From Microbacterium sp. ET2 (GTDB lineage: Bacteria; Actinomycetota; Actinomycetes; Actinomycetales; Microbacteriaceae): a stretch of DNA of 64,000 nt. The position numbers were made by a program, and so were the translations under genes. Positions 1-23,822 of the stretch are shown in pieces (the first letter of the stretch is position 1; every line of letters begins with the position of its first letter). Under the pieces are notes generated by a model that ran no database searches, had not been told where the DNA came from, and saw nothing but the letters and a program-made list of their open reading frames with translations. The stretch is from NCBI RefSeq assembly GCF_030347395.1, contig NZ_CP128170.1, positions 1,426,001 to 1,490,000 on the forward strand, in the 5' to 3' direction.

Positions 1-74
1 TGCCCGCCGAGGGCGAACACCTGCGCCATCCCTCCGCCCATGTAGCCGCTGCCGACGATCGCGATGCGGCTCAT
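1..74 (-). CDS. NAD(P)-binding dehydrogenase, N-terminus only
   Basis: Only the first 24 codons lie in the window. They read as a Rossmann nucleotide-binding start, with [13 protein letters not shown] matching the GxGxMGxGxA fingerprint of 3-hydroxyacyl-CoA or beta-hydroxyacid type dehydrogenases. The ATG at 74 overlaps the stop of the upstream RpiB-like gene in an ATGA arrangement, so the gene belongs to the minus-strand operon that begins at the GH3 gene. It may oxidise or reduce a sugar-derived intermediate of that operon. The substrate cannot be inferred from this fragment. Confidence 0.7.
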
Positions 75-541
75 GCGCTCACCTCACGGTCGTAGGCGTC
101 GATCGCGGCGACCTTCGTCGCCGAGGCGGATGACGGATCGAAGCGGTAATCGAGCCACTCGCGGACGAGACGCTTGGCGAGCTCCAGTCCGATGACGCGC
201 TGACCCATCGTCAGCACCTGGGCGTTGTTGCTCAGAACGGAGCGCTCGACCGAGTAGCTGTCGTGCGCGGTGACGGCCCGCACTCCCGGCACCTTATTCG
301 CCGAAATGGCCACACCGAGGCCGGTCCCGCAGATGAGCAGGGCCCGATCGGCCTCGCCCTCCGCGATACGCCGGGCGGCTTCGACCGCGACGTGGGGGTA
401 GTCCGTGTGCTCGTCGCCGCCGACGCCGACGTCGGTCACGACGGCGACGCGGTCATCCGCCTCGAGCAGCTCCTTGAGAGCTGTCTTGTATTCGTAGCCG
501 GCGTCGTCGCTTCCGACGACGATCCGCAGGGTGTCGGTCAT
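71..541 (-). CDS. RpiB/LacAB-family sugar-phosphate isomerase
   Basis: A 156-residue aldose-ketose isomerase of normal family length. GSDDAG at residues 10-15 is the phosphate-binding start, CGTGLG at 71-76 carries the conserved catalytic Cys, and [13 protein letters not shown] corresponds to the conserved C-terminal active-site segment. I chose ATG 541; an in-frame GTG immediately before it (544) overlaps the DhaK-DhaL stop, and both share the GGAAGG ribosome site. In Mycobacterium smegmatis an RpiB homologue (DerI) converts D-erythrulose 4-phosphate to D-erythrose 4-phosphate downstream of a DhaK-type kinase. The kinase next door makes that role more likely here than a housekeeping ribose-5-phosphate isomerase, but this is inference. 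Confidence 0.88.
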
Positions 542-5629: not shown

Positions 5630-5676
5630 CCTTGACTCCCGCATTTGTCGCGCATAACAACAATTGGCGCTTCTAG

Positions 5677-5748: not shown

Positions 5749-6468
5749 TCAGTCGCTCGCGCCGTCGCTCGCGAACCCTCGGCGGAATCGGCGAGCAGAC
5801 GCATCGATGTGGCGGCGCATGGCGTAGGCGGCGGCGTCGGGATCGCGCGCACCGATGGCGTCGATGATCGCCTGATGCTCGTCGATGGCCTCAGAGGTCA
5901 CCTGCGCCGAATTGGAAAGCCGGAAGAGGTGGACGTGCGGATGCAGGCGCGCCAGCGAGTCGCGGATGTATTCATTGCGGCCGCCGGCAGCGATGGCGTC
6001 ATGCAGTTGAGCGTCGATCTGCGAGAAGCGCGCGTAGGACGCGGGGGCGGAACCGTCTCGCTCGTCATCCAGGCGTCGCATCTCGCGCGCCAAGACGGCG
6101 AGCTCGTCGAGCTCGGCAGGCGTCATCCGCTCTGCCGCACGCCGCGAGGCTGCCGGCTCGAGGAGAAGACGCACCTCGACCATGTCCTCGAACTGCTCCC
6201 GCGTGATCTTCGGACGCACGCGGTATCCCGAGAGATGGTGCCGTACGACGATGCCCTCGGCGTCGAGCCGGTGCAGCGCCTCGCGCACCGGAGTCTGCGA
6301 CACGCCGAACTCCCGCGCGATTGCGTCGATCGTCAGGCGATCCCCCGGACCGAGATCGGAGTGCAGGATGCGCGAGAGGATCGCCGCGTACAGCTCCGCT
6401 CCCATCGGCGGCCGCGCACCCCCCGCCTCGCGGACGGCGGACGACGTCCTGGTGTCGCCTTCGACCAT
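5749..6468 (-). CDS. GntR-family regulator with FCD ligand domain
   Basis: A 239-residue FadR-subfamily transcription factor. The winged helix-turn-helix (roughly residues 20-85) contains EFGVSQTPVREALHRL, and the FCD all-helical effector domain follows, with the His/Asp metal-binding pattern (FSQIDAQLHDAI, later DEHQAI and RRHID). These domains usually bind carboxylates or sugar acids. ATG 6468 is preferred because GGAAGG precedes it at seven bases; ATG 6501 would add eleven residues. The gene is divergent from the 13-gene operon starting at 6703, and a shared motif occurs next to both promoters, so it probably controls that operon and itself. Confidence 0.9.
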   Translation of the reverse strand: MVEGDTRTSSAVREAGGARPPMGAELYAAILSRILHSDLGPGDRLTIDAIAREFGVSQTPVREALHRLDAEGIVVRHHLSGYRVRPKITREQFEDMVEVRLLLEPAASRRAAERMTPAELDELAVLAREMRRLDDERDGSAPASYARFSQIDAQLHDAIAAGGRNEYIRDSLARLHPHVHLFRLSNSAQVTSEAIDEHQAIIDAIGARDPDAAAYAMRRHIDASARRFRRGFASDGASD

Positions 6469-6503
6469 CGGCTCCCCTTCCGTGCCATGGAGCACCGGCA
6501 TTC

Positions 6504-6518
6504 GGATCCTATCTGATC
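6504..6518 (-). promoter_or_regulatory. putative GntR operator, copy 1
   Basis: The minus strand reads GATCAGATAGGATCC, 36-50 bp upstream of the GntR start. Twelve of the thirteen core bases match, in opposite orientation, the motif at 6672-6687 in front of the divergent operon. Its position suggests autoregulation. Confidence 0.5.
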
Positions 6519-6636: not shown

Positions 6637-6687
6637 TTGACATTCCCCGCGAGGTCCGTCTAGCTTTGCGGAATCAGATCGGATCGG
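6637..6687 (+). promoter_or_regulatory. promoter and putative GntR operator, copy 2
   Basis: TTGACA (6637-6642) and TAGCTT (6661-6666) form a -35/-10 pair with 18 bp spacing. ATCAGATCGGATCGG (6673-6687) follows directly at the expected transcription start and matches the inverted copy at 6504-6518. A repressor bound here would block the 13-gene operon. The ribosome site GGAG lies between this and ATG 6703. Confidence 0.6.
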
Positions 6688-6702
6688 ATCAACGGAGATT
6701 TC

Positions 6703-7935
6703 ATGTACGCCGCTTTTCGCGCACCCGGAGAGATCATCTTCGGACCCGGCCAGCGACGAGCCATCCCCGCCCAGGCCGCTCTCCACGGAACGAGGGCCTT
6801 CATCGTGGCCGACGCGTTCCTCGCCGAGAGTCCGCTGCTGACGGAGTTGGGCGTCGGGCTCGACGCCGCCGGCGTGGCGTGGGAGGTCTTTACGCAGGTC
6901 GTCCCCGAGCTCCCGACGCACGCCATCAGCGCCGCATCGGCGGCAGCAGGAGCGTTCGGCGCCGATGTCTTCATCGCAATGGGCGGTGGGAGCAGCATCG
7001 ACACGGCCAAGATGGCCGCCGTCCTTCTGGCCCACGGCGGCGAGGTCTCGGACTACTACGGCGAGCGCCGCGTGCCGGGTCCCGTCGCCCCGATCATCGC
7101 AGCCCCGACGACGGCCGGAACCGGCTCGGAGGTCACGCCTGTGGCGGTCGTGACGGACACTCGGCGGGAGTCGAAGGTGGGCGTCTCCAGCCCTTACCTG
7201 ATCCCGTCGGTCGCCGTCTGCGACCCCGAGATGACCCTCACCTGCCCTGCCGGGGTGACTGCCGCGTCGGGCGCCGACGCGCTGTGCCATGCGATCGAGT
7301 CGTACACCGCGGTCAAGGGCCGCGGTGAACCCACGGACGCGGGACGCGTGTTCATGGGGTCCAGCCTGTTGACGGACACCCTCGCGCTCGAAGCCATTCG
7401 GCGGATCGCCCAGGGATTGCCGCGCGCCTATCGGGAGCCGGGCGATCTGGACTCCCGCGCGCAGACCCTCTATGGGTCCCTGCTTGCCGGCCTTGCGTTC
7501 GGCACGGCGGGCACCGCGGCGGCGCACGCCCTGCAATACCCCATCGGAGCGGTCACTCGCACTCCGCACGGCGTCGGGGTCGGCCTCCTGCTTCCCTTCG
7601 TCATGGAATTCAATCGGTCGGTCCGCGAGGCGGAGCTTGCTGACGTCGCCGCGGCGCTCGGAGCCGGCCCGGCATCTCCCGCCGATCTGGCCCGGCAAGC
7701 CCCCGTCCTCGTTCGCGACATCATGCGCCAGATCGGCATCCCCGATTCCCTCGCGGAACTGGGCTTTCCCGAGGACCGCCTGGACTGGGCCGCAGTGGAG
7801 GGTGTCAAGGCCCAGCGACTGGCTGAGAACAACCCGGTACCCCTCACCGTCGAGGCAGCACGCCAGATCCTCGATGCCGCGTTCTTCGGAGTTCGCACAC
7901 CCGCACCCGAGCAGACAGCCGGAGGCCGCCGATGA
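6703..7935 (+). CDS. iron-containing alcohol dehydrogenase
   Basis: A 410-residue group III NAD(P)-dependent alcohol dehydrogenase. GGGSSIDTAK (about residues 94-103) binds the nucleotide, PTTAGTGSE follows, and the metal ligands are seen as the Asp and His of DALCHAIESY and the His residues of AHALQYPIGAVTRTPHG. Length and motifs are complete. Relatives include lactaldehyde/propanediol, 4-hydroxybutyrate and maleylacetate reductases. It is the first gene of the GntR-controlled operon and its stop overlaps the aldehyde dehydrogenase start by four bases, so the two probably act in sequence on an alcohol-aldehyde-acid conversion. Confidence 0.9.
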   Translation: MYAAFRAPGEIIFGPGQRRAIPAQAALHGTRAFIVADAFLAESPLLTELGVGLDAAGVAWEVFTQVVPELPTHAISAASAAAGAFGADVFIAMGGGSSIDTAKMAAVLLAHGGEVSDYYGERRVPGPVAPIIAAPTTAGTGSEVTPVAVVTDTRRESKVGVSSPYLIPSVAVCDPEMTLTCPAGVTAASGADALCHAIESYTAVKGRGEPTDAGRVFMGSSLLTDTLALEAIRRIAQGLPRAYREPGDLDSRAQTLYGSLLAGLAFGTAGTAAAHALQYPIGAVTRTPHGVGVGLLLPFVMEFNRSVREAELADVAAALGAGPASPADLARQAPVLVRDIMRQIGIPDSLAELGFPEDRLDWAAVEGVKAQRLAENNPVPLTVEAARQILDAAFFGVRTPAPEQTAGGRR

Positions 7936-9326
7936 CCCTCACCGCGCACGCACACTTCGATGTGATCGATCCGGCCGACGAATCGATTATCAGCGCAGTC
8001 CCCGACCACGGCCCTGCCGACGCAGACCACGCCGTCGAGGCGGCGCGCTCTGCGGCGCCGGCCTGGCGCGCACTTTCCAGCAGGGAGCGCAGCGACGTCC
8101 TGCTGCGCGCATTCGACATCATGATGTCGCGCAGGGACGAGCTCGCTGCGCTGATCTCCCGCGAGAACGGAAAGGCGCGAGCGGATGCGCTGGCCGAGGT
8201 CACCTACGCCGCGGAGTACTTCCGGTGGTACGCCGAAGAGGCGGTGCGGGTACGGGGTGAGCATTTCGACAACCCGACCGGATCGACGAAGGTCCTGGTA
8301 TCTCACGAGCCGGTGGGTATCTGCGTCCTCGTGACGCCGTGGAACTTCCCCGCAGCGATGGCGACACGCAAGATCGGCCCGGCGCTCGCCGTCGGCTGCA
8401 CCGCGATCCTGAAGCCGGCCGCCGAGACGCCGCTCACCGCCTTGGCGATCGCGGACATCCTGGAGGAGGCCGGACTCCCCGACGGTGTGCTCACGGTCCT
8501 CACGACGCGCTCGGCCGGACCGCTGGTCGACCGGCTCCTCGAGCACGATGACGTGCGGATGCTGTCGTTCACCGGTTCCACCGAAGTCGGCCGCCACCTG
8601 CTCGAACGTGCATCGCGTCGCGTCCTCCGCACGGCGATGGAGCTCGGAGGGAACGCGCCGTTCCTCGTCCTGGGCGACACCGACGTCGATGCAGCCGTGG
8701 ACGGGGCGCTTCTGGCCAAGATGCGCAACGGCGGACAGGCGTGCACGGCAGCGAATCGCTTCTATGTGCACGACAGCATCTATGACGCCTTCGCCGATGC
8801 GCTCACCGAGCGGATGCGCAGTCTGCACGTCGGCCCCGCGAGCGACGCGACCGTCGACGTCGGTCCCCTCGTCAATGCCAAGAGCGTGAGCAAAGTGCGC
8901 GAACTGGTCGAGGACGCCGTCCAGCGCGGGGCCCGGGTGCTCACCGGCGGCGAGGCCCCCGACGGCCCCGGGTTCTTCTATCCGCCGACGGTGCTGGCCG
9001 ACGTCCCCGCAGACGCGCGGATCCTGCACGAGGAGGTCTTCGGGCCGGTCGCGCCGCTCGTGCGCTTCTCGTCCGAGGACGAAGCCGTCGCTGCGGCCAA
9101 CGCCACCATCTACGGCCTCGTCTCCTACCTCTACACCGACGACCTGCGGAAGGGACTCGCGATCGCCGGACGCCTGGAATCGGGAATGGTCGCCCTGAAC
9201 CGGGGTCTGGTCTCCGATCCGGCGGCTCCCTTCGGGGGCGTGAAGGAGAGCGGCATCGGCCGCGAAGGTTCCACCGAAGGACTGCACGAATACCTGGAGA
9301 CGAAGTACGTCGCGACCAACTGGTGA
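7932..9326 (+). CDS. aldehyde dehydrogenase, succinate-semialdehyde type
   Basis: A 464-residue NAD(P)-dependent aldehyde dehydrogenase. TPWNFPAAM and KPAAETPLTA form the cofactor site, MELGGNAPF holds the general-base Glu, and NGGQACTAANR holds the catalytic Cys. It resembles GabD-like succinate or glutarate semialdehyde dehydrogenases, but paralogues act on many sugar-derived aldehydes. Translation is coupled to the alcohol dehydrogenase through ATGA. It probably oxidises an aldehyde made by the alcohol dehydrogenase or released by the aldolase-fold protein encoded next. Confidence 0.92.
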   Translation: MTLTAHAHFDVIDPADESIISAVPDHGPADADHAVEAARSAAPAWRALSSRERSDVLLRAFDIMMSRRDELAALISRENGKARADALAEVTYAAEYFRWYAEEAVRVRGEHFDNPTGSTKVLVSHEPVGICVLVTPWNFPAAMATRKIGPALAVGCTAILKPAAETPLTALAIADILEEAGLPDGVLTVLTTRSAGPLVDRLLEHDDVRMLSFTGSTEVGRHLLERASRRVLRTAMELGGNAPFLVLGDTDVDAAVDGALLAKMRNGGQACTAANRFYVHDSIYDAFADALTERMRSLHVGPASDATVDVGPLVNAKSVSKVRELVEDAVQRGARVLTGGEAPDGPGFFYPPTVLADVPADARILHEEVFGPVAPLVRFSSEDEAVAAANATIYGLVSYLYTDDLRKGLAIAGRLESGMVALNRGLVSDPAAPFGGVKESGIGREGSTEGLHEYLETKYVATNW

Positions 9327-9364
9327 GGTCGCCGAGGTCCACACCGAAGGAAGGCAACAAGCCC

Positions 9365-10060
9365 ATGGAATACGAAGAAATCAAGAAGCTGTACGACGGC
9401 CTGCGCGTCTCCGACGTCCGGGACGGCATGGACTGGATCGGACTGTTCAGCAAGGGCAGCGTGTCCCGCGACATCCGACCGCTGTTCGACGGAGCCCGTC
9501 TGTGCGGCCCCGCCCTGACGGTCCGGCTCGTCGCGTCGCACGATCAGGCACCGCCCATCTCGCCCGACGAGTACACCGAATGGGCACGCAATCACTGGTA
9601 CAAGATCAAGCACATCGAGCCCTACGTCAGCGACATCGTCCAGGGCGACGTGGTCGTCATCGAGGCCCCCTACCTGGGCGTCGGTCAGCTCGGCTCCTGG
9701 AACACCCTGAACTTCTTCCTCAACGGCGCGCAGGGCGTCGTCAGCTCCGGCGGTGTCCGAGACACCGACGAATGCCGACTGCAGCAGGTGCCGATCTTCA
9801 CCCAGTTCATCGGCCAGTCCATGACCCAGGGGCGCATCGAGTACCTCGAGCACAACACGCCGATCACGATCGGCGGCCAGCGGGTCAACCCCCGCGACCT
9901 CGTCGTGGGTGACGGCGACGGCGTGATCATCGTGCCCGAGGACCGGATCGAAGAGGTCGCGAAGTACGCCCGCCAAGAGGCGGTCAACGACAAGCGCGGC
10001 CGCCGAAAGATGTACGAGCAGCTCGGCTGGGCGCTGGACGACACCGTCCAGGTCGACTGA
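9365..10060 (+). CDS. RraA-like family protein, possible aldolase
   Basis: A 231-residue RraA-fold protein. GGVRDTDEC carries the RD-x2-E arrangement seen in divalent-metal class II HMG/CHA aldolases of this fold, and VGDGDGVIIVPE is the usual C-terminal signature. True RraA proteins, which regulate RNase E, are shorter (about 160 residues) and lack such context. Family enzymes cleave 4-hydroxy-2-oxo acids to pyruvate or oxaloacetate. In-frame sequence extends back to 9323, but ATG 9365, preceded by GAAGGAAGG, gives the natural N-terminus. Its place between aldehyde and beta-hydroxyacid dehydrogenases suggests retro-aldol cleavage of a sugar-derived keto acid. Confidence 0.75.
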   Translation: MEYEEIKKLYDGLRVSDVRDGMDWIGLFSKGSVSRDIRPLFDGARLCGPALTVRLVASHDQAPPISPDEYTEWARNHWYKIKHIEPYVSDIVQGDVVVIEAPYLGVGQLGSWNTLNFFLNGAQGVVSSGGVRDTDECRLQQVPIFTQFIGQSMTQGRIEYLEHNTPITIGGQRVNPRDLVVGDGDGVIIVPEDRIEEVAKYARQEAVNDKRGRRKMYEQLGWALDDTVQVD

Positions 10061-10095
10061 GCGGACGCGGCGAGCGCGGATTCGAAGGAGAAACC

Positions 10096-10926
10096 ATGCG
10101 GGTCGGATTCATCGGACTGGGAGACATCGGCATGCCGATGGCCCAGCGCCTCGTCGACAGCGGCTTCGACGTCGTCGGGTCGGACCTGTCGGAGGACAAG
10201 TGCGCTCAGCTCCGGAAGGAGGGCGCCTCGATCGCCACAAGCCTCGATGACTTTTCGGACTGCGCCGTCGTCGGACTCGCCGTCCCCGACGACCAGACCG
10301 TCGAGAGCCTCCTCGTCGAGGACGGTCTGGTCCGGGTCCTGTCGTCAGCGTCCGTTCTCATCCACAGCACGGTGCTGCCGGTGACTGTGGACAAGCTCGC
10401 CGAGATGTCGGCTGACGGGGGCGTGCGTGTCTCGGACGCCCCCGTCAGCGGCGGCGCCGCGCGGGCACGCGACGGGTCGCTCACCATCATGGTCGGAGGC
10501 GAGCCGACCCCAGACGCTCAGAAGTACCTCGACGCGCTGGGCACGACGGTCAAATGCGGCCGCCCCGGGGCCGGAGCGGCTGTCAAACTCGCCAACCAGC
10601 TCTCCATGCTCGCCGCGCTGGAAGCGCTGTACGAGGGCCTGGCCCTCACGGACGCGTACGACGTGGACCCGGGTGTGGTGCTGAAAACGCTTCAGACCTC
10701 CACCGGCGACAGCTGGACGGCGCGGAACTGGGGGTTCTTCGACGACCTCGCCGCGAACTACGATCGCGCCGGTGTCGAGGTCCGCTATCGCCCGTGGAGC
10801 AAGGACCTGTGGGACGTGGTCGCCGCCGCGCGCGCAGCCGGCACGTCCGCGCCGCTGGCAGCCCTGCTCTCCCAGACACTCGCCGACGCCGTCGAGCGGC
10901 ACGCACAGGAAGCGAAGGGACGATGA
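10096..10926 (+). CDS. beta-hydroxyacid dehydrogenase (HIBADH/GarR family)
   Basis: A 276-residue NAD(P)-dependent dehydrogenase. GLGDIGMPMA (residues 7-16) is the nucleotide fingerprint, DAPVSGGAARA is the substrate-binding motif, and GAGAAVKLANQ holds the catalytic Lys of the family. A further conserved Lys is in WSKDL near residue 236. Family members act on 3-hydroxyisobutyrate, tartronate semialdehyde or similar beta-hydroxy acids. A ribosome site (GAAGGAG) precedes ATG 10096. It may take the C3 or C4 product of the RraA-like enzyme. The exact substrate is unknown. Confidence 0.88.
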   Translation: MRVGFIGLGDIGMPMAQRLVDSGFDVVGSDLSEDKCAQLRKEGASIATSLDDFSDCAVVGLAVPDDQTVESLLVEDGLVRVLSSASVLIHSTVLPVTVDKLAEMSADGGVRVSDAPVSGGAARARDGSLTIMVGGEPTPDAQKYLDALGTTVKCGRPGAGAAVKLANQLSMLAALEALYEGLALTDAYDVDPGVVLKTLQTSTGDSWTARNWGFFDDLAANYDRAGVEVRYRPWSKDLWDVVAAARAAGTSAPLAALLSQTLADAVERHAQEAKGR

Positions 10927-11909
10927 CGGTCCAGCCCGCGATCATCGAGCAACTGCCCGAGCAGGGCTCCTTCGGCTCCGACAGTCTCGCGCCGGATCCT
11001 GAACGACGCCGCGCCATGAAGCGCAACCGCCTACGGAACACGCTGTCGGCGTACGGGTTCCTGACGCCGTGGTTCATCGGCATGATCGTCATCACGCTGG
11101 GGCCGATCATCGCCTCGCTGTACTTGTCCTTCACCCGGTACGACCTCATCGGGACACCGGACTGGATCGGGGTGGACAATTACGTCCGACTGTTCGAGCG
11201 TGACCCTCGTTTCCTGAAGTCCGTCGGGGTCACCATCATGTACACGCTGCTGAGCGTGCCCGGCATCCTGGTGTTCTCGCTCCTGCTCGCGCTCTTCCTC
11301 AACCGGGGCCTGCGGTTCCTCGGCGTGTACCGGGCGCTCTTCTACATCCCGTCACTCCTCGGCAGCAGCGTCGCGATCGCCGTACTCTGGCTCCAGGTCT
11401 TCGGCTCCAACGGCATCTTCAACGCCGCGCTGAGCATCTTCGGCATCGACGGACGCAGCTGGGTGGGTAATCCCGATACGGCTCTCTACACGATCGTCGC
11501 ATTGGCGATCTGGACGTTCGGCAGCACCATGGTGATCTTCCTCGCGGGTCTGCGGCAGATCCCGGCGTCGTACTACGAGGCTGCGCAGATCGACGGCGCC
11601 AACCGTTGGCAGCAGTTCTGGTCGATCACCTTCCCACACCTCACGCCGGTCATCTTCTTCAACGGGCTCCTGGTGATCGTCAACTCGCTGCAGTCCTTCA
11701 CCCCGGCGTACGTCATCAGCGGCGGCACCGGCCAGCCGGCCGACTCGCTGCTGCTCTATACCGTCTACCTCTACCAAAAGGGCTTCGTGGACTTCCAGAT
11801 GGGGTACGCATCGGCCATGGCATGGGTGCTGCTCCTGGCGCTGGGACTCATCACCGGGGGCCTGTTCTGGAGTGCGCGCTACTGGGTGTTCTACGGGGAG
11901 GACTCATGA
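10923..11909 (+). CDS. carbohydrate ABC transporter permease 1 (UgpA/MalF type)
   Basis: A 328-residue inner-membrane permease of the CUT1 sugar family with about six transmembrane segments after a 45-residue soluble N-terminus. EAAQIDGANRWQQFW is the EAA loop that docks on the ATPase. ATG 10923 overlaps the previous stop (ATGA). The operon holds a second permease and a binding protein but no ATPase, as is usual for CUT1 systems that share an MsmK/UgpC ATPase encoded elsewhere. This argues that the operon substrate is a sugar, sugar derivative or glycoside. Confidence 0.93.
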   Translation: MTVQPAIIEQLPEQGSFGSDSLAPDPERRRAMKRNRLRNTLSAYGFLTPWFIGMIVITLGPIIASLYLSFTRYDLIGTPDWIGVDNYVRLFERDPRFLKSVGVTIMYTLLSVPGILVFSLLLALFLNRGLRFLGVYRALFYIPSLLGSSVAIAVLWLQVFGSNGIFNAALSIFGIDGRSWVGNPDTALYTIVALAIWTFGSTMVIFLAGLRQIPASYYEAAQIDGANRWQQFWSITFPHLTPVIFFNGLLVIVNSLQSFTPAYVISGGTGQPADSLLLYTVYLYQKGFVDFQMGYASAMAWVLLLALGLITGGLFWSARYWVFYGEDS

Positions 11910-12826
11910 CCATCGACACCAACACCTACGCGATCACCACGCGCGGCGACCGTCACCGCCGGCGCCCGCGGTTCCTGCCGACGCGACCGACCCGAAGCAG
12001 AGTCCTCTCGGCCTGGGCGCGCCACGCGGTCACGATTGCCGTCCTGGTGATCATGCTCTACCCGGTGGTCTGGATGGTGGATGCCTCGTTCCGCCCGAAT
12101 TCCGAAATCGGCCGATCTCTGCTGCCGTTCACGGGCTCCTTCACCCTCGAGAACTACGCCGCGGGCTTCACCGCATCGACGACGCTGAACTTCGGCGTGT
12201 TCTTCGTCAATTCGTTCATCATCGCGGCACTTGCCGTCGTCGGAAACCTGTTCGCGGCCACGCTCACCGGCTTCGCATTCGCGCGACTGGACTTCCCGTT
12301 CAAACGGACACTGTTCGCACTACTGATGGTCACCCTTCTTCTCCCGTACCAAGTGACGATCGTTCCGCAGTACATCCTCTTCAACGAGCTGGGCTGGCTG
12401 AACACGTACCTGCCGCTCATCGTGCCGAAGTTCCTCGCGACCGACGCGTTCTTCATCTTCCTCACCATCCAGTTCATCCGCGGACTCCCGAGAGACCTCG
12501 ATGAGGCGGCGCGACTGGACGGGTGCGGGAATTTCGGCATCTTCCGACGCATCATCCTTCCGCTCCTGGGTCCGGCGATCGCCACCACGGCGATGTTCAC
12601 CTTCATCGCGACCTGGAACGACTTCCTCGGCCCGCGGCTCTACATTTCCGACACTGCCCGATACACCGTCCCGCAAGGGCTGGTGCAGTTCGTGGACTCG
12701 ACCGGCGAGTCCTCGCTCGGCGCTCTCTTCGCGATGGCCACGCTGTCCATCGCGCCGCTCATCGGCTTCTTCCTCGCGGCGCAGCGTCTGCTCACTCAAG
12801 GGATCGCCACCACCGGCCTGAAATGA
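11906..12826 (+). CDS. carbohydrate ABC transporter permease 2 (UgpE/MalG type)
   Basis: A 306-residue partner permease of the CUT1 family with about six transmembrane segments. The EAA-type loop is seen as LDEAARLDGCGNFGIFRR. The N-terminus is long and arginine-rich (about 40 residues) before the first membrane segment. ATG 11906 overlaps the stop of permease 1, so the two subunits are translationally coupled. With the preceding permease and the following binding protein it forms the uptake system of this operon. Confidence 0.93.
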   Translation: MTIDTNTYAITTRGDRHRRRPRFLPTRPTRSRVLSAWARHAVTIAVLVIMLYPVVWMVDASFRPNSEIGRSLLPFTGSFTLENYAAGFTASTTLNFGVFFVNSFIIAALAVVGNLFAATLTGFAFARLDFPFKRTLFALLMVTLLLPYQVTIVPQYILFNELGWLNTYLPLIVPKFLATDAFFIFLTIQFIRGLPRDLDEAARLDGCGNFGIFRRIILPLLGPAIATTAMFTFIATWNDFLGPRLYISDTARYTVPQGLVQFVDSTGESSLGALFAMATLSIAPLIGFFLAAQRLLTQGIATTGLK

Positions 12827-12878
12827 CTCCGACTCTGACGACGACGTCCCCCAACACCCGATACAGAAAGAGAGAACC

Positions 12879-14201
12879 ATGAAGCAGCAGCTTCGGTACC
12901 TGGCGGTCGCCACGGCGGCGTCCGCGACTATCCTCGGACTGAGCGCCTGCGGAGGCGGCAGCGGCGGCGAAGCTGCCGCTCCCGAGGCGACCGGCGAAGT
13001 CGCCGGCGAGATCCAGTACTCCTGGTGGGGCGGTCCCGCCCGAAACGAGAAGACGCAGGCCGTCATCGACCTGTACCAGGAGGCCAACCCGGATGTGACG
13101 GTCAACGGCACCACGGCGGAGTTCGCCGCCTACTTCGAGACCGCCAGCGTCCAGGCCGCCGGCGACAACCTCCCCTGCGTGCCCCAGATGCAGAACCGTC
13201 TGATGGCCGACTACGCCGACCGTGGCGCGCTGCGTCCGCTCGACGATCTCGTCGAGAACGGGACGATCGACGTCTCGGCCATCCCGGAGAGCGTGCTCGA
13301 CAGCGGACGAGGCTCCGACGGGCAGCTCTACATGATCCCCTACGGCGCTGCGTTCGGCTCCCTCCTGGTGAACACCACCATGGTCGAGGATGCCGGTCTT
13401 CCGCTGCCCCCGGAGGAGTACGACTGGGAGTGGCTCGCCGGATGGTTCGGCGATGTGACCGAGGCCACCGGCGCGCCCGCGACGGGGATCGTCGGAAACC
13501 AGCAGGACGTTCTCGAAGCGTGGCTGCGAAGCCACGACGCCGACTTCTACGACGAAGGCAGCGTCGGGTTCACGGCGGAGGACGTCGAGGCGTTCTGGGA
13601 CTATTCGCTCGACCTCCAGGAGAACGGCTACTCCATCTCCGCCGAGCGCGCCTCCGAGACCACGGGACTGCCGCTCGAGCAGAACGACTTCAGCCAGGGA
13701 ACGCAAGCCACCGTGTTCTGGCCGGCGAACGGTCTCGGCACGGCCCAGGCCACGATCGATCAGGTCGCGCCAGGCAACGTCCTGCAGGCGTTTCCGCTCC
13801 CCACGGGCCCCTCCGGCAACGGCAGCGCCTTCTGGCTGTCGGGCCTGTCGATCTCCGCGAACTGCGACAACGTCGCCACGGCTGCGGACTTCATCGACTT
13901 CTTCGTCAACGACGAGGAGGCGGCACTGGTGTACGCATCGGACAACGGCGCCAACACGCAGACGGAGAACCTGCAGGCGCTCCTGGACAGCCCTGACACC
14001 TCGGAGGCGAAGAGGGCCGAGCTCGAGCTCTACCAGACCCTCGCCGACGCCGGCGTCGCGCCCACCGTGTACGGCACGGGCTACGCGACGCTGTTCCAGC
14101 AGGCGGTGACCCGGTACTACCAGCAGGTCTCCTTCGATCAGCTCAGCGTCGAAGAAGCCGCGGAGCAGTTCACCACCGAGGCCCAGGACACCATCGGTTG
14201 A
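12879..14201 (+). CDS. sugar ABC transporter substrate-binding lipoprotein
   Basis: A 440-residue extracellular solute-binding protein, family 1. A lipoprotein signal peptide ends in the lipobox LSAC with Cys24, followed by a Gly/Ala-rich linker, so the mature protein is lipid-anchored outside the membrane. The mature start IQYSWWGGPARNEKTQAVI is typical of CUT1 binding proteins. It is placed after both permease genes, 52 bp downstream. A strong stem-loop directly follows the stop, as often seen where the binding protein is made in excess of the rest of the operon. Confidence 0.93.
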   Translation: MKQQLRYLAVATAASATILGLSACGGGSGGEAAAPEATGEVAGEIQYSWWGGPARNEKTQAVIDLYQEANPDVTVNGTTAEFAAYFETASVQAAGDNLPCVPQMQNRLMADYADRGALRPLDDLVENGTIDVSAIPESVLDSGRGSDGQLYMIPYGAAFGSLLVNTTMVEDAGLPLPPEEYDWEWLAGWFGDVTEATGAPATGIVGNQQDVLEAWLRSHDADFYDEGSVGFTAEDVEAFWDYSLDLQENGYSISAERASETTGLPLEQNDFSQGTQATVFWPANGLGTAQATIDQVAPGNVLQAFPLPTGPSGNGSAFWLSGLSISANCDNVATAADFIDFFVNDEEAALVYASDNGANTQTENLQALLDSPDTSEAKRAELELYQTLADAGVAPTVYGTGYATLFQQAVTRYYQQVSFDQLSVEEAAEQFTTEAQDTIG

Positions 14202-14207
14202 CGACGC

Positions 14208-14233
14208 CGGGGGCCGGTGAGATCCGGCCCCCG
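14208..14233 (+). terminator. stem-loop after the binding-protein gene
   Basis: A perfect 10-bp stem with a six-base loop (CGGGGGCCGG, TGAGAT, CCGGCCCCCG) starts seven bases after the binding-protein stop. There is no T-run. It is best read as an intercistronic attenuator or a 3' stabilising hairpin, because the operon clearly continues 35 bp further on. Confidence 0.7.
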
Positions 14234-14267
14234 CTGTCGCCCCCACGGTTCGACGAAAGGAATGAGG

Positions 14268-15419
14268 ATGCAACCCGGCGCCCTCGACGGAATGACGGTG
14301 GTCGACCTCACGCAGGTCATGGCGGGACCCTTCTGCACGATGCTGCTGGCGGATTTCGGAGCCGATGTCATCAAGGTGGAGCCCCCCGGTGGGGGTGACC
14401 AGACTCGTCATTCGTGGGGTCGCTCCGGCAAAGGCGAAGACGGGCCCGCGTTCTTCGCACTCAATCGCAATAAGCGCTCGGTCGTCCTCGATCTGCGCTC
14501 TGACGAGGGTCTCGCCGATCTTCGTCGGCTCGTGGCCGACGCCGATGTCCTCGTGGAGAACTACCGTCCCGGCGTCACGGCTCGTCTCGGGATCGACTAT
14601 GAGACGCTGCGCGATCTCAATCCGGGCCTCATATACGCCAGCATCTCGGGGTTCGGGCAATCCGGTCCGTATTCGAATCGGCCCGGCTACGACCTCATCG
14701 CCCAGGGGATGGCGGGTGTCATGGGGGTGACCGGGCACCCCGACGCACCGCCGGCGAAGGCGGGCGTTCCTGTCGCCGATCTTGGATCCGGGCTGTTCTG
14801 CGCGTACGGCATCGCCGCCGCCTACATCCACAAGCTGCGTACCGGGGAGGGGCAGCGCGTAGAGACCTCCCTGTTCGAAGCGGCCCTCGGCTTCACCGTC
14901 TGGGAAGCGACGGAGTACTGGGCCAGTGGAGACGTACCCGCCCGCACCGGCTCGTCGCACCGCATGTCGGCGCCGTACCAGGCCTTCCGCACCGGTGACG
15001 GGTGGATGACGATCGGCGCCAACAACCAGCGGCTCTGGGGATTCCTGTGCGCTGCCCTCGATGCGCCCGAGCTCGAACTCGACGAGCGGTTCGCGACCAA
15101 CCCGCTGCGGATGAAGAACAAGCAGGAGCTGGCCGACACCATCGAGTCGCTGCTGGCAGGCCACGGCACGGACTACTGGGTGGAGCGGCTCCTGGCGGGC
15201 GGAGTGCCCTGCGGACCGATCCTGGCGTACGACGAAGTCCTGCGCGATCCGCACACAGAGCACCGGGAGATGGTGAAGACGATTCCTCACCCGGTCGAGG
15301 GCGAGGTGCAGACCCTCGGCTTCCCGATCAAGATGAGCGGCACTCCCGCAGAGGTCCGCCGGCACCCGCCGCTTCTCGGCGAGCACCAGGACGAGCTTCT
15401 GGGTGAGCGGATCCCATGA
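14268..15419 (+). CDS. CaiB/BaiF class III CoA-transferase
   Basis: A 383-residue family III CoA-transferase. MAGPFCTMLLADFGADVIKVEPP is the canonical N-terminus in overlapping short motifs, and PVADLGSG holds Asp171, which matches the catalytic Asp169 of formyl-CoA transferase. It moves CoA from an acyl-CoA donor to a carboxylic acid made by the pathway. ATG 14268 is chosen because AAAGG lies seven bases upstream; ATG 14262 is too close to it. The stop overlaps the crotonase start by four bases, so the product is probably handed to that enzyme. Confidence 0.92.
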   Translation: MQPGALDGMTVVDLTQVMAGPFCTMLLADFGADVIKVEPPGGGDQTRHSWGRSGKGEDGPAFFALNRNKRSVVLDLRSDEGLADLRRLVADADVLVENYRPGVTARLGIDYETLRDLNPGLIYASISGFGQSGPYSNRPGYDLIAQGMAGVMGVTGHPDAPPAKAGVPVADLGSGLFCAYGIAAAYIHKLRTGEGQRVETSLFEAALGFTVWEATEYWASGDVPARTGSSHRMSAPYQAFRTGDGWMTIGANNQRLWGFLCAALDAPELELDERFATNPLRMKNKQELADTIESLLAGHGTDYWVERLLAGGVPCGPILAYDEVLRDPHTEHREMVKTIPHPVEGEVQTLGFPIKMSGTPAEVRRHPPLLGEHQDELLGERIP

Positions 15420-16189
15420 CGGGCACCGTCGATCTCCGCGCCGATCGCGGCGTCGCCACGCTGACCTTCTCGAACCCACGGAGCCGCAACGCCATCGACC
15501 GGGCGATGTACGACGCGTTCGAGGGCTTCCTGCGCGACATCCGTGCGGACGAGTCGGTGAGGGCGGTCGTCCTCCGCGGCGCCGACGGTGCGTTCGTCGG
15601 CGGCACGGACATCCGCTGGCTGCAGGAGATCACCTCCGGACCGGACGGCGTCGCCTACGAGGCCCACATGCGCCGGGTCCAGGTGGCGCTGACCGATGTG
15701 GACGTGCCGATCATCGCCGTCGTCGACGGAGCGTGCGTGGGTGGCGGCATTGTTCTGGCCGCCCTCAGCGACCTCGTCGTGTGCACACCGTCATCGCGCT
15801 TCGGCTCGCCGATCGCCCGAACGGTCGGGAACACCCTGTCGCCGACGTCGATCGCGCGATTGAGCGCCACCTTCGGCCGCCGTAACACTGCCGAGATGCT
15901 GTTCACCGCCCGGCTCTTCTCCGCGGAAGAAGCGTTGCAGGCGGGTTTCGTCACATCCGTCGTCGACGCCGATGGGGTGGAAGAGCACCTCGACGGGCTG
16001 CTCGATGCCATCCGGTCCTGCGCTCCCCTCACCCTCCGATCGTTCCGCCGTCTGTGGCGCCGGGTCGACGCCGTCTTGGCGGATGCGCCCCGAGACGACG
16101 TCTACGCGGAGATCTACGGCAGCGCCGACTTCCAGGAGGGCGTTGCGGCGTTCCTCGACAAGCGGCGCCCGTCGTTCGAAGGACGATGA
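15416..16189 (+). CDS. enoyl-CoA hydratase/isomerase-family protein
   Basis: A 257-residue crotonase-fold protein. The oxyanion hole is present (GAFVGGTDIRWL and GACVGGGIVL). The two Glu residues of true enoyl-CoA hydratases are not evident: the stretch that usually carries them reads SPIARTVGNTLSPTSIARL and has no acidic residue. It may therefore be an isomerase, decarboxylase, thioesterase or lyase rather than a hydratase. It is coupled by ATGA to the CoA-transferase upstream and to the amidohydrolase downstream, so it acts on the CoA ester made in this pathway. Confidence 0.85.
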   Translation: MTGTVDLRADRGVATLTFSNPRSRNAIDRAMYDAFEGFLRDIRADESVRAVVLRGADGAFVGGTDIRWLQEITSGPDGVAYEAHMRRVQVALTDVDVPIIAVVDGACVGGGIVLAALSDLVVCTPSSRFGSPIARTVGNTLSPTSIARLSATFGRRNTAEMLFTARLFSAEEALQAGFVTSVVDADGVEEHLDGLLDAIRSCAPLTLRSFRRLWRRVDAVLADAPRDDVYAEIYGSADFQEGVAAFLDKRRPSFEGR

Positions 16190-17055
16190 TGATCATCGAC
16201 GCTCACCATCACCTTTGGCCCGCAGATGTGATCGACAGGCAGCCCTGGCGTCCCGCCGACGACGGCGTGCTCCGCCGGGCCTTCGATGCCGAGGAGTGGG
16301 AGCGGGAGCTCGACGCCTCCGGGATCGACGGAAGCATCGTCATGCAATCCGTCGACGACGTCGACGAGAACGCCCGCTTGGCGGCGTACGCCCGCACGAG
16401 CCCGCGCATCCACGGATGGGTGGGCTACGCCGATCTCGCCTCGCCCGCTGACGGCGTCGCGCAGGTCGACGGCCTGCTCGCCCTTCGAACGCAGGCCGGT
16501 GGAGACAAGCTCGTCGGCGTGCGGTGCCTGGTGGGGGCCGATCCGATGGCATGGACGGCGGAACGCGACGGCCGCCGAGCGCTGCTCCGCGCAGCCGACG
16601 GCGGACTGGTCTGGGACACGGTGCCGATCACCGACGATCAGATCGACGCGATCTCGGCGGTGGCCCGAGCTGCGCCGCACCTGCGCATCGTCGTCGACCA
16701 CCTCGCATCCCCGCCGATGTCCGAGGACGGCTTCGGAGACTGGGTGCGGCGTGTGCGCCGCCTCGCCGAGACCCCGAACATTGCGATCAAACTGTCGGTG
16801 GGCGTCGCGGTACTGCAGCGATGGGCGTCGTGGGACGACGCCGCACTCCGGCCGTACGTCGATGTCGCACTCGCCGCCTTCGGGCCGTCTCGATGCATGC
16901 TGGCGAGCAACTGGCCCGTCGTCCTCCTGCGCGCCAGCCATCGCCAGGCGTGGAACAGCATGGTCCGGGCCGTACGCGACCTCGACGGCGACGACCGGCG
17001 CCTGGTCACCGGCGGGACCGCGGCCCACTGGTACGGGCTGGGAGCACACCGATGA
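16186..17055 (+). CDS. amidohydrolase-2/COG3618 hydrolase (lactonase-like)
   Basis: A 289-residue TIM-barrel metal hydrolase. IDAHHHLWP near the N-terminus gives the HxH motif and VDHLASPP gives a later ligand His. Relatives hydrolyse sugar lactones such as L-rhamnono- or L-fucono-lactone, or related cyclic acids. The C-terminal motif that usually reads SDWP is ASNWPV here, so the Asp that normally serves as general base is replaced by Asn. ATG 16186 overlaps the crotonase stop. With two MocA-type dehydrogenases following, a dehydrogenase-lactonase sequence is a natural model, with the Asn as a caveat. Confidence 0.82.
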   Translation: MMIIDAHHHLWPADVIDRQPWRPADDGVLRRAFDAEEWERELDASGIDGSIVMQSVDDVDENARLAAYARTSPRIHGWVGYADLASPADGVAQVDGLLALRTQAGGDKLVGVRCLVGADPMAWTAERDGRRALLRAADGGLVWDTVPITDDQIDAISAVARAAPHLRIVVDHLASPPMSEDGFGDWVRRVRRLAETPNIAIKLSVGVAVLQRWASWDDAALRPYVDVALAAFGPSRCMLASNWPVVLLRASHRQAWNSMVRAVRDLDGDDRRLVTGGTAAHWYGLGAHR

Positions 17056-18110
17056 CCGGCCGGTTGCGGATCGGACTGGTCGGAACCGGCTGGGTAGCCC
17101 ATCAGCACGTTGCGGGATCGAGGCACGTCGCTGCGGATGACGTGGAGATCGTCGCCGCGGCCGACCCTCGGGGCGATGTACTCGACGACTTCGCCACGCG
17201 ATACGACATCCCCCACCGCTTCCGCGATGCGACCACCATGATCACCTCGGGAACGGTGGATGCCATCGCCCTGCTCACGCCACCGGCCGTGCGGGCCGAG
17301 GTGCTCGAGCCGGCCTTCGCACAGGGCATCCACGTGCTCATCGAGAAGCCGTTCGCCCAGTCCGGAGCCGACGCCGTCACCTTCACCGAAGCAGCCGAGG
17401 CAGCCCACGTGACCCTCGCGGTGAGTCAGAACTTCCGCTGGTTCCCGGAGTACCCATGGGTTCGGGCCCAGGTACGCCGGCCGGAGGCGGGGGATGTCAC
17501 CTTCCTCGAGGCTCGGACCTTTCAGGACAGACCGCAGGCGGGAGGTGTCTGGCGGGCCGAGGAGACGAAGCTCGAGATGGCGATCTTCAGCGTCCACCTC
17601 ATCGATCGGCTCCGCTGGATCGCGCCGACCGAGCCGGTGGGGGTCCGGGCCCTCACGCGCCGGCGCCGGGGAAGCACTGTGCGAGGCGAGCAGTGGGCAT
17701 CCCTCCTCGTGGACTTCGCCGGCGGCGGAGTGGGTGTCGTGACGTCGTCCTGGACGAGCCGTCGCCTCCCGACCAACACGTTCCGCGTCGACACGACACA
17801 CGGATCCGTCGCGGTCCAGCGGAGCGCTCCGATGGCTGGGACGGCGACGGGCGTTGCCGACTTCGACGGCGAGACCCCGCAGGAGGTCGTCTTCAGCGAA
17901 ACCCGCAGCGGGGAGCACTCGGCACTGTCGTACGGCTCGAGCATGCGCGAGTTCGCACGAGCCATCGCCGAGGGTCGAGACCCCGCCCACAGCGCTCGCG
18001 ACAACCTCCAGACCATGGGTCTGATGGAAGCCGCCTACCTCTCGGCCGCTCGAAACGGCAGCCCCGTCACCATCGAAGAGGCCTTGCACGGACATGTCGC
18101 GCTCCGCTGA
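17052..18110 (+). CDS. Gfo/Idh/MocA-family oxidoreductase 1
   Basis: A 352-residue NAD(P)-dependent sugar or cyclitol dehydrogenase. GLVGTGWVAHQH is the Rossmann fingerprint, LIEKPFA holds the conserved catalytic Lys, and EMAIFSVHLIDRLRWI carries the His/Asp pair of the active-site helix. Family members oxidise ring hydroxyls or the anomeric carbon of sugars, inositols and glycosides. The start overlaps the amidohydrolase stop (ATGA). Along with the second MocA protein it probably performs the first oxidation of the imported carbohydrate. Confidence 0.9.
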   Translation: MTGRLRIGLVGTGWVAHQHVAGSRHVAADDVEIVAAADPRGDVLDDFATRYDIPHRFRDATTMITSGTVDAIALLTPPAVRAEVLEPAFAQGIHVLIEKPFAQSGADAVTFTEAAEAAHVTLAVSQNFRWFPEYPWVRAQVRRPEAGDVTFLEARTFQDRPQAGGVWRAEETKLEMAIFSVHLIDRLRWIAPTEPVGVRALTRRRRGSTVRGEQWASLLVDFAGGGVGVVTSSWTSRRLPTNTFRVDTTHGSVAVQRSAPMAGTATGVADFDGETPQEVVFSETRSGEHSALSYGSSMREFARAIAEGRDPAHSARDNLQTMGLMEAAYLSAARNGSPVTIEEALHGHVALR

Positions 18111-19158
18111 CGACGCCATCGACGTCGCCCTCATCGGGCTCGGCAACAGCGGCCGGCATTACCACCTCCCGCATCTCCGAGAGGACCCCCGTTACCGGCT
18201 GCGTGTCATCGCGACGAGTCGAGCTGACACCTCCCCCGACGTCGACGCCGACGCCGACGCCGACATCGAGTGGGTCCATGGGTGGCAACGCGCTCTCGAT
18301 GTGCCGCACCTCGATCTCGTCGTCGTGGCCACACCGCATGATCTCCATCATCCGATCACCGCGGCGGCGCTTGATCGGGGGTGCTCGGTGCTCGTCGAGA
18401 AGCCCCTCACCGTCACCGTTGCCGAAGCCGATGACCTCATCGCTCGGGCAGCGACCGCGCCCGGCCGACTGTTCGTCCACCATCAACGGCGGTGGGAGGC
18501 CGATTTCCTCGCCCTTGAGGAGGTGGTCCGTTCGGGCGAGCTCGGGCGGCCGTGGCGGATCTCCGCCACGCGGGGTCACCAGGGCGAGTACCGCATGTCG
18601 ACGGCGGAGAAGCCTCACGTCGGCGCTCGGACCGCCGGCTGGGCACACCGGCGCAGCTCGGGCGGTGGTGTCCTGCGGGTGATCGGTCCTCACCCGATCG
18701 ACCATGTCCTGCGATTAGCGGGATCTCCGCCCCTCTCCGTCCACGCGCGGACCTCGATCGAAGACGGCGAAGACGTCGAACAATGGGCGGGCATCGACCT
18801 CGACTTCGCGGAGGGTCTGACCGGACGAGTGGACATCTTCCGCCGTCTCGGTGCGCCCGCCCCGCGTTTCGCGGTGTGGGGCGAGTCCGGAATGGCGATC
18901 GCGCCGACCGGCGATCGCGTCGACATCTTCGCCGCGGATGGCACGACCCGGTCCATCCGCGGCCTGACGCCCCCGGGGACGCTGGGCGCAGAGATCTACG
19001 ACGACATCGCGGCGGCTCTCCACGCGGGTGTGGTGCCGCGGATCACCGTCGACGAAGCGCGGGAGGTCGTCCGCGTGATCGAACTCGCAGAGAGGTCGGC
19101 ACGTTCGTCGGCCACCTCACGGTCCGCGCCCGGAGAACCGGGCGATCCTCCATCCTGA
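18094..19158 (+). CDS. Gfo/Idh/MocA-family oxidoreductase 2
   Basis: A 354-residue second member of the family, only distantly similar to its neighbour. GLGNSGRHYHLPHL and LVEKPLTV give the nucleotide site and catalytic Lys, and VIGPHPIDHVLRL the active-site His/Asp. A run of GACGCC codons around 18241-18266 encodes an alternating Asp-Ala loop (residues about 51-58), a likely slippage-born insertion. The start lies 17 bp inside the previous gene. It is the last gene of the operon. Paired MocA enzymes often oxidise and then reduce the same sugar in 3-keto glycoside pathways. Confidence 0.9.
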   Translation: MSRSADDAIDVALIGLGNSGRHYHLPHLREDPRYRLRVIATSRADTSPDVDADADADIEWVHGWQRALDVPHLDLVVVATPHDLHHPITAAALDRGCSVLVEKPLTVTVAEADDLIARAATAPGRLFVHHQRRWEADFLALEEVVRSGELGRPWRISATRGHQGEYRMSTAEKPHVGARTAGWAHRRSSGGGVLRVIGPHPIDHVLRLAGSPPLSVHARTSIEDGEDVEQWAGIDLDFAEGLTGRVDIFRRLGAPAPRFAVWGESGMAIAPTGDRVDIFAADGTTRSIRGLTPPGTLGAEIYDDIAAALHAGVVPRITVDEAREVVRVIELAERSARSSATSRSAPGEPGDPPS

Positions 19159-19182
19159 CGCTGTGCGCACCAGCGCTATCGT
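19155..19182 (+). promoter_or_regulatory. promoter for the PhzF-like gene
   Basis: CTGACG (19155-19160) and TATCGT (19177-19182) are 16 bp apart. The -10 element ends seven bases before GTG 19190, which implies a leaderless transcript. Confidence 0.5.
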
Positions 19183-19189
19183 CGACAGC

Positions 19190-20050
19190 GTGGTCACACC
19201 CTCCGTTCAGCGCTGGGCCGCCTTCTCCTCCGATCCCGCCGGCGGCAACCCCGCGGGGGTCGTGCTGGACGCGGACGGGATGTCGGATGCCGAGATGCTG
19301 CGCGTCGCGGCCGAGGTCGGCTACTCCGAGACCGCCTTCGTGACCCGCGGCACCCGGGGCGACCTGTCGCTGCGCTACTTCTCGCCCCTGGCCGAGGTGC
19401 CCTTCTGCGGCCACGCGACGGTCGCGACTGCCGCAGCCCTCGCAGAGGTGGCCGGGCCGGGCGCCTACTCGTTCGCGACACCTGTCGGGCTGATCCAGAT
19501 CACCGTCGACGCCACCGATGCGGACCGTGTGGTGCGCTTCACGAGCGTCGACCCCTCCGTCGAGGACCTCGCCGTCGACACCCGCGCGCGCATCCTCGAG
19601 GTCCTTCACCTCGAGGATGCCGACCTCGACCCCGCGCACGCGCCGGCGCTGGCCTCGGCAGGCAACCCGCATCCGCTTCTCGTCGTGCGCTCGCGGGGCG
19701 CGCTCGATCGAGTGACCTTCGACCCCGCCGCCGCCCGTGCGCTGATGGATGCCGAGGGCTGGCCGGCCACGATCATCGTCGCGTGGGCGGAGACCGCGGA
19801 CACGTGGCACGTGCGGAACGTCTTCCCTGTCGGAGCGATCAGCGAAGACCCGGCGACGGGAGCCGGCGCCGCCGCCCTCGGCGGCTATCTGCGAGAGACG
19901 CGCGCGGTGACACCGCCGCAGCGCATCCGGATCTTCCAGGGATCGCACGTCGCACGACCCAGCGAGCTGACCGTGGACATCCCCGCCGCAGGTGGGATCG
20001 TGGTGTCGGGCTCGGCGGTCCGCCTGCCCGAGCCCGCGACCCTCGCCTGA
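19190..20050 (+). CDS. PhzF-family isomerase-like protein
   Basis: About 286 residues of the PhzF (diaminopimelate-epimerase fold) family. The N-terminal pattern FSSDPAGGNPAGVVLDADG, the conserved active-site Glu in YSETAF, and ISEDPATGAGAAALGGYL are all present. Physiological substrates are unknown for most members; PhzF itself isomerises dihydro-3-hydroxyanthranilate, and no other phenazine gene is here. GTG 19190 is preferred over the in-frame GTG 19163 because a -10 box lies seven bases before it and the resulting N-terminus fits the family. It is transcriptionally separate from the operon upstream. Confidence 0.82.
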   Translation: MVTPSVQRWAAFSSDPAGGNPAGVVLDADGMSDAEMLRVAAEVGYSETAFVTRGTRGDLSLRYFSPLAEVPFCGHATVATAAALAEVAGPGAYSFATPVGLIQITVDATDADRVVRFTSVDPSVEDLAVDTRARILEVLHLEDADLDPAHAPALASAGNPHPLLVVRSRGALDRVTFDPAAARALMDAEGWPATIIVAWAETADTWHVRNVFPVGAISEDPATGAGAAALGGYLRETRAVTPPQRIRIFQGSHVARPSELTVDIPAAGGIVVSGSAVRLPEPATLA

Positions 20051-23694: not shown

Positions 23695-23822
23695 CCTTCG
23701 ACCGTACGTACTCGACGCGTCGGATGCGAGGTCTGGCGTGTCGGGCTGTGGACGGGGTAGGGGTCGAACCCGCAACGGCCGCCCCGCCCCGCCCCGGCGG
23801 CGGCCGACCGTCCGTCTGGCGT

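Follow-up and report, generated by a model that had tools for sequence, protein, structure and literature searches.

A thirteen-gene operon of Microbacterium sp. ET2, tentatively read as a variant of uronide/aldarate catabolism with a coenzyme A step

The operon

Positions 6703-19158 of a 64,000-nucleotide stretch of Microbacterium sp. ET2 DNA (contig NZ_CP128170.1, positions 1,426,001 to 1,490,000; called the window here, and part of a single-contig 3.60-Mb genome) hold 13 genes, all on the + strand, that combine a CUT1 sugar importer with a varied set of catabolic enzymes. An earlier note, made from the letters alone, had described them as co-directional and assigned them to protein families; the Pfam matches agree. 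The series opens with an iron-containing alcohol dehydrogenase (Fe-ADH; 6703..7935) and an SSADH-like aldehyde dehydrogenase (ALDH; 7932..9326; TIGR01780 at 549.5 bits, under its cut-off). It continues with an RraA-like candidate class II pyruvate aldolase (9365..10060), a HIBADH-like beta-hydroxyacid dehydrogenase that is a candidate tartronate semialdehyde reductase (10096..10926), two CUT1 permeases matching BPD_transp_1 (10923..11909 and 11906..12826) and a YesO-like solute-binding protein (12879..14201). A class III coenzyme A (CoA)-transferase (14268..15419; 461 bits in Pfam), a crotonase (15416..16189), a lactonase- or lactone-isomerase-like Amidohydro_2 protein (16186..17055) and two Gfo/Idh/MocA dehydrogenases (17052..18110, with 5uhw as best PDB relative, and 18094..19158, with 3e82, YvaA) follow. 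Overlaps occur at seven of the 12 junctions (4 bases at six of them, 17 at one), so that ten genes share in overlaps; the remaining gaps are 35-66 bases, and the nine overlap-joined genes of the earlier note must be corrected to that extent. The junction count uses start codons preferred by codon usage and homologues; the RraA-like protein most likely starts at 9365 rather than 9323.

Conservation and spread

Distantly related bacteria carry the operon as one block. The full series of 13 families stands together, in the same order, in the window, in Microbacterium yannicii PS01 (L037; 53-95% identity to the window proteins) and in G518 (L133/L134; 48-80%), as the proposal of one catabolic unit would have it; synteny and a common promoter motif (see below) speak against chance neighbors. 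A locus scan with the RraA alignment, covering the best 78 loci of a longer list, delineates a core of RraA, HIBADH, importer, CoA-transferase, crotonase and Amidohydro_2. This core lies in one neighborhood of at most about 20-25 kb in 16 genomes spanning two phyla: the window, L037, G518, Kineococcus L039, Cellulomonas L040, Phytoactinopolyspora L042, Streptomyces L041, L043, L045 and NP160/G087, G115, G043, G318, G200, Microvirga ossetica L117 and Devosia L099. (In L040 the HIBADH gene is beyond the locus edge, in L099 the stretch ends within the permease, of which just a piece is visible, and the G200 CoA-transferase is split across two frames in the gene calls.) The MocA pair is an optional part of the module, seen in six of the 16 (the window, L037, G518, G087, G115 and G043; some stretches end early). 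G087, G115 and G043 go beyond this gene set: RraA and crotonase occur there a second time, and a CaiE/PaaY-like gene is added. Saccharopolyspora L044 is the exception: its RraA, HIBADH, importer and amidohydrolase form an operon that lacks the CoA-transferase/crotonase pair, there is a CoA-transferase gene (43%) at a distance of 5 kb beyond it, and about 5.7 kb upstream a DgoD-like one.

The RraA clade is rare, being found in 4 of 398 genomes of the family (E 1e-40) and 2 of 394 of the class (E 1e-30), the own genome included in each case. Placed on a tree built from 60 RraA rows, the core loci require 5 changes, compared with 17.0 in shuffles (L038 and L140 are labeled as outside the core there, their stretches alone having no visible core), and RraA proteins from three separate branches occur in core loci. 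RraA and the rest of the module have therefore come together, or moved between genomes, on more than one occasion. The tentative description, given somewhat less than an even chance, is of a catabolic operon scattered by horizontal transfer.

Regulator and promoter region

A divergent gene (5749..6501, - strand) encodes a protein with Pfam GntR and FCD matches that is likely to regulate the operon; its orthologues (73% in L037, 59% in G518, 50-51% in G087, G115 and G043) all point away from the Fe-ADH gene. A putative operator containing ATCGGATCGGAT (6673..6689, +) ends 13 bases 5' of the Fe-ADH start codon, and a weaker copy lies at 6501-6517. The pattern ATCGKATCGKAT is found upstream of the operon in the window, L037, G518 and G043 alike. 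Its exact form occurs five times in five whole genomes (G000, G518, G043, G087 and G115), four of these copies preceding the module's Fe-ADH gene (one each in G000, G518, G043 and G087) and the fifth inside a coding gene of G000. The G087 copy is independent, that genome having had no part in deriving the pattern; in G043 and G087 an RraA gene begins on the other side of the site. The exact pattern is absent from the whole genome of G115, and the pattern read backwards has no copy in any of the five. With two mismatches allowed it is not above chance in the window or L037 and is thus informative only in its exact form. A wider regulon finds no support, since the sole other exact G000 site is intragenic and two-mismatch sites are at chance level. 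Terminator-like sites number 3, where shuffles give 3.9, and are not enriched; a σ70 consensus was not found, which means little for an actinobacterial host.

The importer and its substrate

Import of a carbohydrate is supported, and the binding protein of the CUT1 importer looks like a YesO-type uronide binder: YesO is its best match in both sequence (23% identity) and fold. W50, R55 and N284, which correspond to the carboxylate site of YesO (Trp20, Arg25, Asn254), are invariant in 10/10 binding proteins, leaving out a second, cut copy at the end of L037; the residues were matched through the offset between the numberings and through secondary structure, the Asn less surely. The imported substrate is probably a uronide or uronate, that is, an acid-bearing sugar. 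It is unlikely to be YesO's own ligand, because GH88/105 is lacking in 7/7 genomes and rhamnogalacturonan I lyase in G000; the former speaks against rhamnogalacturonan I disaccharides as such.

The enzymes

The RraA-like protein belongs to a clade of 230-residue proteins with invariant residues of its own. Its homologues number 870 proteins at E 0.001, and the 120 matches listed (all E <1e-61) bear names such as "RraA family protein" and "4-hydroxy-4-methyl-2-oxoglutarate aldolase". Its motif is S110-X20-R131-D132-X2-E135, and S-X20-R-D-X2-E is kept in 24/24 distinct aligned proteins. (Residue counts here drop duplicates, namely G860=L042, G087=L038 and G032=L039, and rows without letters at the motif.) R131 and D132, present in all 24 and invariant in the clade alignment as well, align with the Arg and metal-binding Asp of the P. 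putida enzyme (R123, D124). The motif reportedly given by Mazurkewich in 2014 is D-X20-R-D or G-X20-R-D-X2-E/D; the clade has Ser where class II aldolases have Asp or Gly. As an RraA-fold aldolase candidate the protein keeps R-D-X2-E but departs from the motif at its first position. The HIBADH-like protein finds its best NCBIfam model in TIGR01505 (tartronate semialdehyde reductase; 130.3 bits against a cut-off of 340.75), is 30% identical to E. coli GarR and keeps the catalytic Lys (15/15). The nearest PDB relatives of Fe-ADH are NAD-dependent methanol dehydrogenases, followed by other Fe-ADH proteins such as lactaldehyde reductase. An RpiB-family isomerase gene shares 11 loci with the RraA-like gene (L099, L115, L116, L145 and seven more) and overlaps it in Rhizobium L115; the isomerase at these loci may act on a non-phosphorylated keto-uronate.

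The CoA-transferase keeps Asp169 (Frc numbering, aligned with E. coli Frc and CaiB), the catalytic residue of Frc, in 14/14 proteins, a count that leaves out split or partial L099 and L146, two duplicates and distant L044; its best-named PDB relative is succinate-hydroxymethylglutarate CoA-transferase. The predicted structure of the crotonase has a normal crotonase fold (predicted local distance difference test score, pLDDT, 93.3), as claimed, but the name "hydratase" is doubtful: both hydratase Glu (144 and 164 of the rat enzyme) are absent from 21/21 distinct proteins, which have P-[IV]-[AG]-[RKQ]-T-[LVI]-G-N instead. The active site of the methylmalonyl-CoA decarboxylase ScpB uses His and Tyr; these residues are missing as well, with GTD in place of GHD and no aligned Tyr. 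The fold match assigns no function, because the top 50 PDB rows, which include hydratases, isomerases, methylmalonyl-CoA decarboxylase and MenB, lie within about 4 Z units. CoA-transferase and crotonase genes also adjoin in six of eight proteobacterial plasmid stretches (L121-L128), where transporter genes (TRAP, TTT, MFS or symporter) are close by. The crotonase gene of two Caballeronia plasmids instead follows one for a tartrate dehydrogenase.

The Amidohydro_2 protein keeps H-x-H (15/15 distinct rows with letters) and has Asn in place of the Asp of S-D-W-P (16/16), which is Asp in fuconolactonase 4dlf; another Amidohydro_2 protein, 6uvz, also has Asn there. The fuconolactonase model scores 122 bits, under its cut-off. 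In view of this Asn the name "lactonase" calls for caution.

A proposed route and its rivals

What might these proteins do together? The whole of the favored reading, an operon for uronic acid sugars in which the CoA pair stands in for an aldarate dehydratase, is offered as plausible at rather less than an even chance. The YesO-like importer would take up a uronide or free uronate. The MocA enzymes, where present, would oxidize it at C1 or C3. (Oxidation by MocA was part of the original proposal, and the pair is indeed present here; its absence from view in 10/16 core genomes speaks against it as an obligatory first step.) The Amidohydro_2 enzyme would open or isomerize the lactone to a sugar diacid, to which the CoA-transferase would bring CoA from an acyl-CoA. 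The crotonase would work on the thioester, most likely removing the beta-hydroxyl, and CoA would be handed on to a further substrate molecule, in the manner of the CaiB/CaiD or Frc/Oxc pairs. RraA would split the resulting 2-keto-3-deoxy acid into pyruvate and a semialdehyde, the HIBADH-like enzyme would convert tartronate semialdehyde to glycerate, and Fe-ADH and ALDH would deal with aldehyde by-products. An acid-sugar route with a CoA-ester step had been foreseen and is supported; the step need not come last, however, and may sit mid-route. The gene set, its synteny, the key residues and the structural match of the binding protein are observations; the substrate class and the reactions are deduced from them.

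The two ends of aldarate degradation known to us are both represented among the relatives. One, that of the gar genes, employs an aldolase and tartronate semialdehyde reductase; in the other, described in part in PMC6353982, dehydration leads to ketoglutarate semialdehyde. In Bacillus L066 the RraA and HIBADH genes come immediately after one for a GarK-like glycerate kinase (46%). At Mesobacillus L116 one RraA gene is accompanied by those for an NAD(P)-dependent oxidoreductase, an importer and another RraA, and further by Ldh, Fe-ADH, ALDH, D-glycerate dehydrogenase and RpiB genes and a regulator of the sugar-diacid type. In G318 genes for an FAA-hydrolase, a 2-hydroxyacid dehydrogenase and a ketoglutarate-semialdehyde dehydrogenase (KGSADH; 502 bits to NF052305, under its cut-off) lie on one strand behind the core, and in G043 the same triple stands behind Fe-ADH-ALDH-RraA-crotonase genes; KGSADH was found in two of six genomes, beside module genes in these two. 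The aldolase-plus-reductase end is given a chance just short of even. As to the dehydration step, no GudD/DgoD/YagF/GarD-type dehydratase is found in the stretches of 15/16 core genomes (Microvirga L117 is the exception), and GudD/GarD-type queries, which did not include Gci, had no match in the window; G000 has no GarD family member. With no dehydratase in sight and the chemistry of the CoA pair otherwise unplaced, dehydration via a CoA thioester is proposed, doubtful though this part is. The more general idea, that a self-recycling pair of CoA-transferase and Glu-free crotonase dehydrates or cleaves aldarate-CoA, replacing the enolase-superfamily, IlvD/Edd and GarD dehydratases within a widely distributed uronide operon, is likewise rather unlikely.

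Several observations weigh against the uronate route with CoA-dependent dehydration. No protein of the 13 reaches an NCBIfam equivalog cut-off, and the missing Glu pair counts against simple dehydration. Enolase-superfamily proteins are encoded elsewhere in 7/7 genomes (six matches in G000), so a dehydratase acting in trans is possible. G000 has neither an FAA-hydrolase relative at E 1e-20 nor a close KGSADH at E 1e-120. The Microvirga binding protein lacks W, R and N, that of Rhizobium lacks the Asn, and the GH88/105 and lyase negatives given above belong here as well. Lastly, Roseinatronobacter L123 resembles Microvirga in HIBADH (51%), amidohydrolase (49%), CoA-transferase (67%) and crotonase (58%), with neither RraA nor CUT1 within its 20.8 kb.

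In one alternative the importer and acid-sugar route are the same but the CoA pair cleaves a carbon-carbon bond. HIBADH would oxidize a 3-hydroxy sugar acid to the 3-keto acid, the CoA-transferase would activate it, and the crotonase would split the thioester hydrolytically, generating a short acyl-CoA as donor for the following round of transfer. HIBADH and amidohydrolase do accompany the pair at L123 even without RraA, glycolate oxidase genes lie near the crotonase in Caballeronia L121, and five clostridial RraA loci not showing the pair have beta-keto acid cleavage enzymes (no match to these in the window). Deoxyribonate catabolism offers a precedent (PMC6365646, in excerpt), and ring-opening hydrolysis has been proposed for another crotonase that lacks the catalytic residues (PMC9007349, likewise in excerpt). 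Cleavage leaves the FAA-hydrolase and KGSADH genes of relatives unexplained, as well as the GarK-RraA-HIBADH order of L066, and the evidence for a uronide shifts the balance away from it; we consider it unlikely. That the pair serves a non-sugar acid, a dicarboxylate or aglycone freed from an imported glycoside and linked to the other genes through the common substrate only, is improbable too. The CoA-transferase resembles dicarboxylate enzymes, and the six plasmid stretches have the pair near varied transporter genes and without RraA, but in the 16 core genomes, which span two phyla, the pair comes with RraA, CUT1 and amidohydrolase genes, and no glycosidase was seen among the genes that are shared.

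A plant sugar of branched or unusual structure such as apiose, with the first MocA protein as dehydrogenase and RraA as aldolase on the branched acid, is more improbable still. The best PDB relative of that MocA protein, 5uhw, is presumably an apiose-related Agrobacterium enzyme, and the adjoining divergent operon has GH3, AP_endonuc_2, Dak kinase and RpiB genes. Those are the only two points in favor, and the proposal is weakened: the MocA protein in question was not seen in 10/16 core genomes, the Dak and AP_endonuc_2 proteins have no relatives (E 1e-15) in the other loci searched, and the binding protein retains its carboxylate site.

Uronic acids are a major component of plant cell walls, and to our knowledge the routes described for their breakdown all rely on an enzyme specific to acid sugars, be it a dehydratase, a cycloisomerase or an isomerase. 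If the uronate route does employ thioester chemistry, this would be a new type of reaction for sugar-acid metabolism; it would also provide a function for an RraA-like clade that bears only generic names among the matches listed, and would help to explain the CoA-transferase/crotonase pairs of proteobacterial plasmids. The binding protein makes the question of the substrate directly testable.

Neighboring genes

The divergent operon past the regulator (71-5644, -) encodes GH3, AP_endonuc_2, a fused Dak1-Dak2 kinase and RpiB, and resembles what we take to be a tetrulose kinase/isomerase set with a glycosidase. The lack of Dak and AP_endonuc_2 relatives in the other loci searched speaks against its being part of the module; at E 1e-15 its GH3 has relatives only in L080 (33%) and L065 (29% of length), and its RpiB has relatives in 11 loci. 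A PhzF-family gene (19163-20050, +), 4 bases past the last MocA gene, is probably a late neighbor; it was not found at the matching place in L037 or L134, which have the same 13-gene order. Further on (21378-23775, -) lies a region that is trehalose synthase-like by translation, in two frames (21378-22313 and 21625-23775) with an apparent frameshift, and without a Pfam match at 1e-5.

Comparison with known systems

A search of the open-licence PMC literature found neither this gene set nor parts of it assigned to a pathway. The statement that it matches no known pathway stands to that extent; its exclusiveness is tempered by the oxidative deoxyribonate pathways, which, according to the sections of PMC6365646 available, convert a sugar acid to glyceryl-CoA and acetyl-CoA, and share with the operon an acyl-CoA end, a lactonase and a CoA-transferase. 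They use a beta-keto acid cleavage enzyme or thiolase rather than a crotonase, and RraA goes unmentioned in those sections. The B. subtilis rhamnogalacturonan importer YesOPQ (PMC7596534, in part) has the same carboxylate-binding Trp, Arg and Asn as the binding protein, which is only 23% identical and belongs to a genome without GH88/105. The aldolase of the protocatechuate and gallate pathways that acts on 4-hydroxy-4-methyl-2-oxoglutarate and 4-carboxy-4-hydroxy-2-oxoadipate is likewise of the RraA family and requires the Arg and the metal-binding Asp (PMC5065237, in part); the invariant Ser at the first motif position sets the window clade apart.

The E. coli garPLRK operon for galactarate and glucarate also pairs an aldolase with a HIBADH-family reductase, and a GarK-like kinase appears in L066; the window has an RraA-like protein in place of GarL, 30% identity to GarR and no GarD found. 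The carnitine operon caiTABCDE of E. coli likewise combines a class III CoA-transferase with a crotonase, and relatives of the window operon encode a CaiE-like hexapeptide protein; the window itself has no hexapeptide gene, its crotonase lacks the Glu of CaiD, and the substrate class is another. The oxidative uronate pathway of Agrobacterium (Udh, Gli, Gci, KdgD and KGSADH), as partly set out in PMC6353982, resembles the proposed route in oxidizing a uronate, in its 2-keto-3-deoxy diacid, in having a lactone enzyme of the amidohydrolase superfamily and, for relatives G318 and G043, in the KGSADH-like genes. It differs in that the window has MocA proteins for Udh (at only some loci), a CoA-transferase and crotonase with no Gci, GudD or GarD found in the operon, an RraA-like protein, and a CUT1 importer of the YesO-like kind. 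We class the operon as a variant of oxidative uronide/aldarate catabolism that includes a CoA step.

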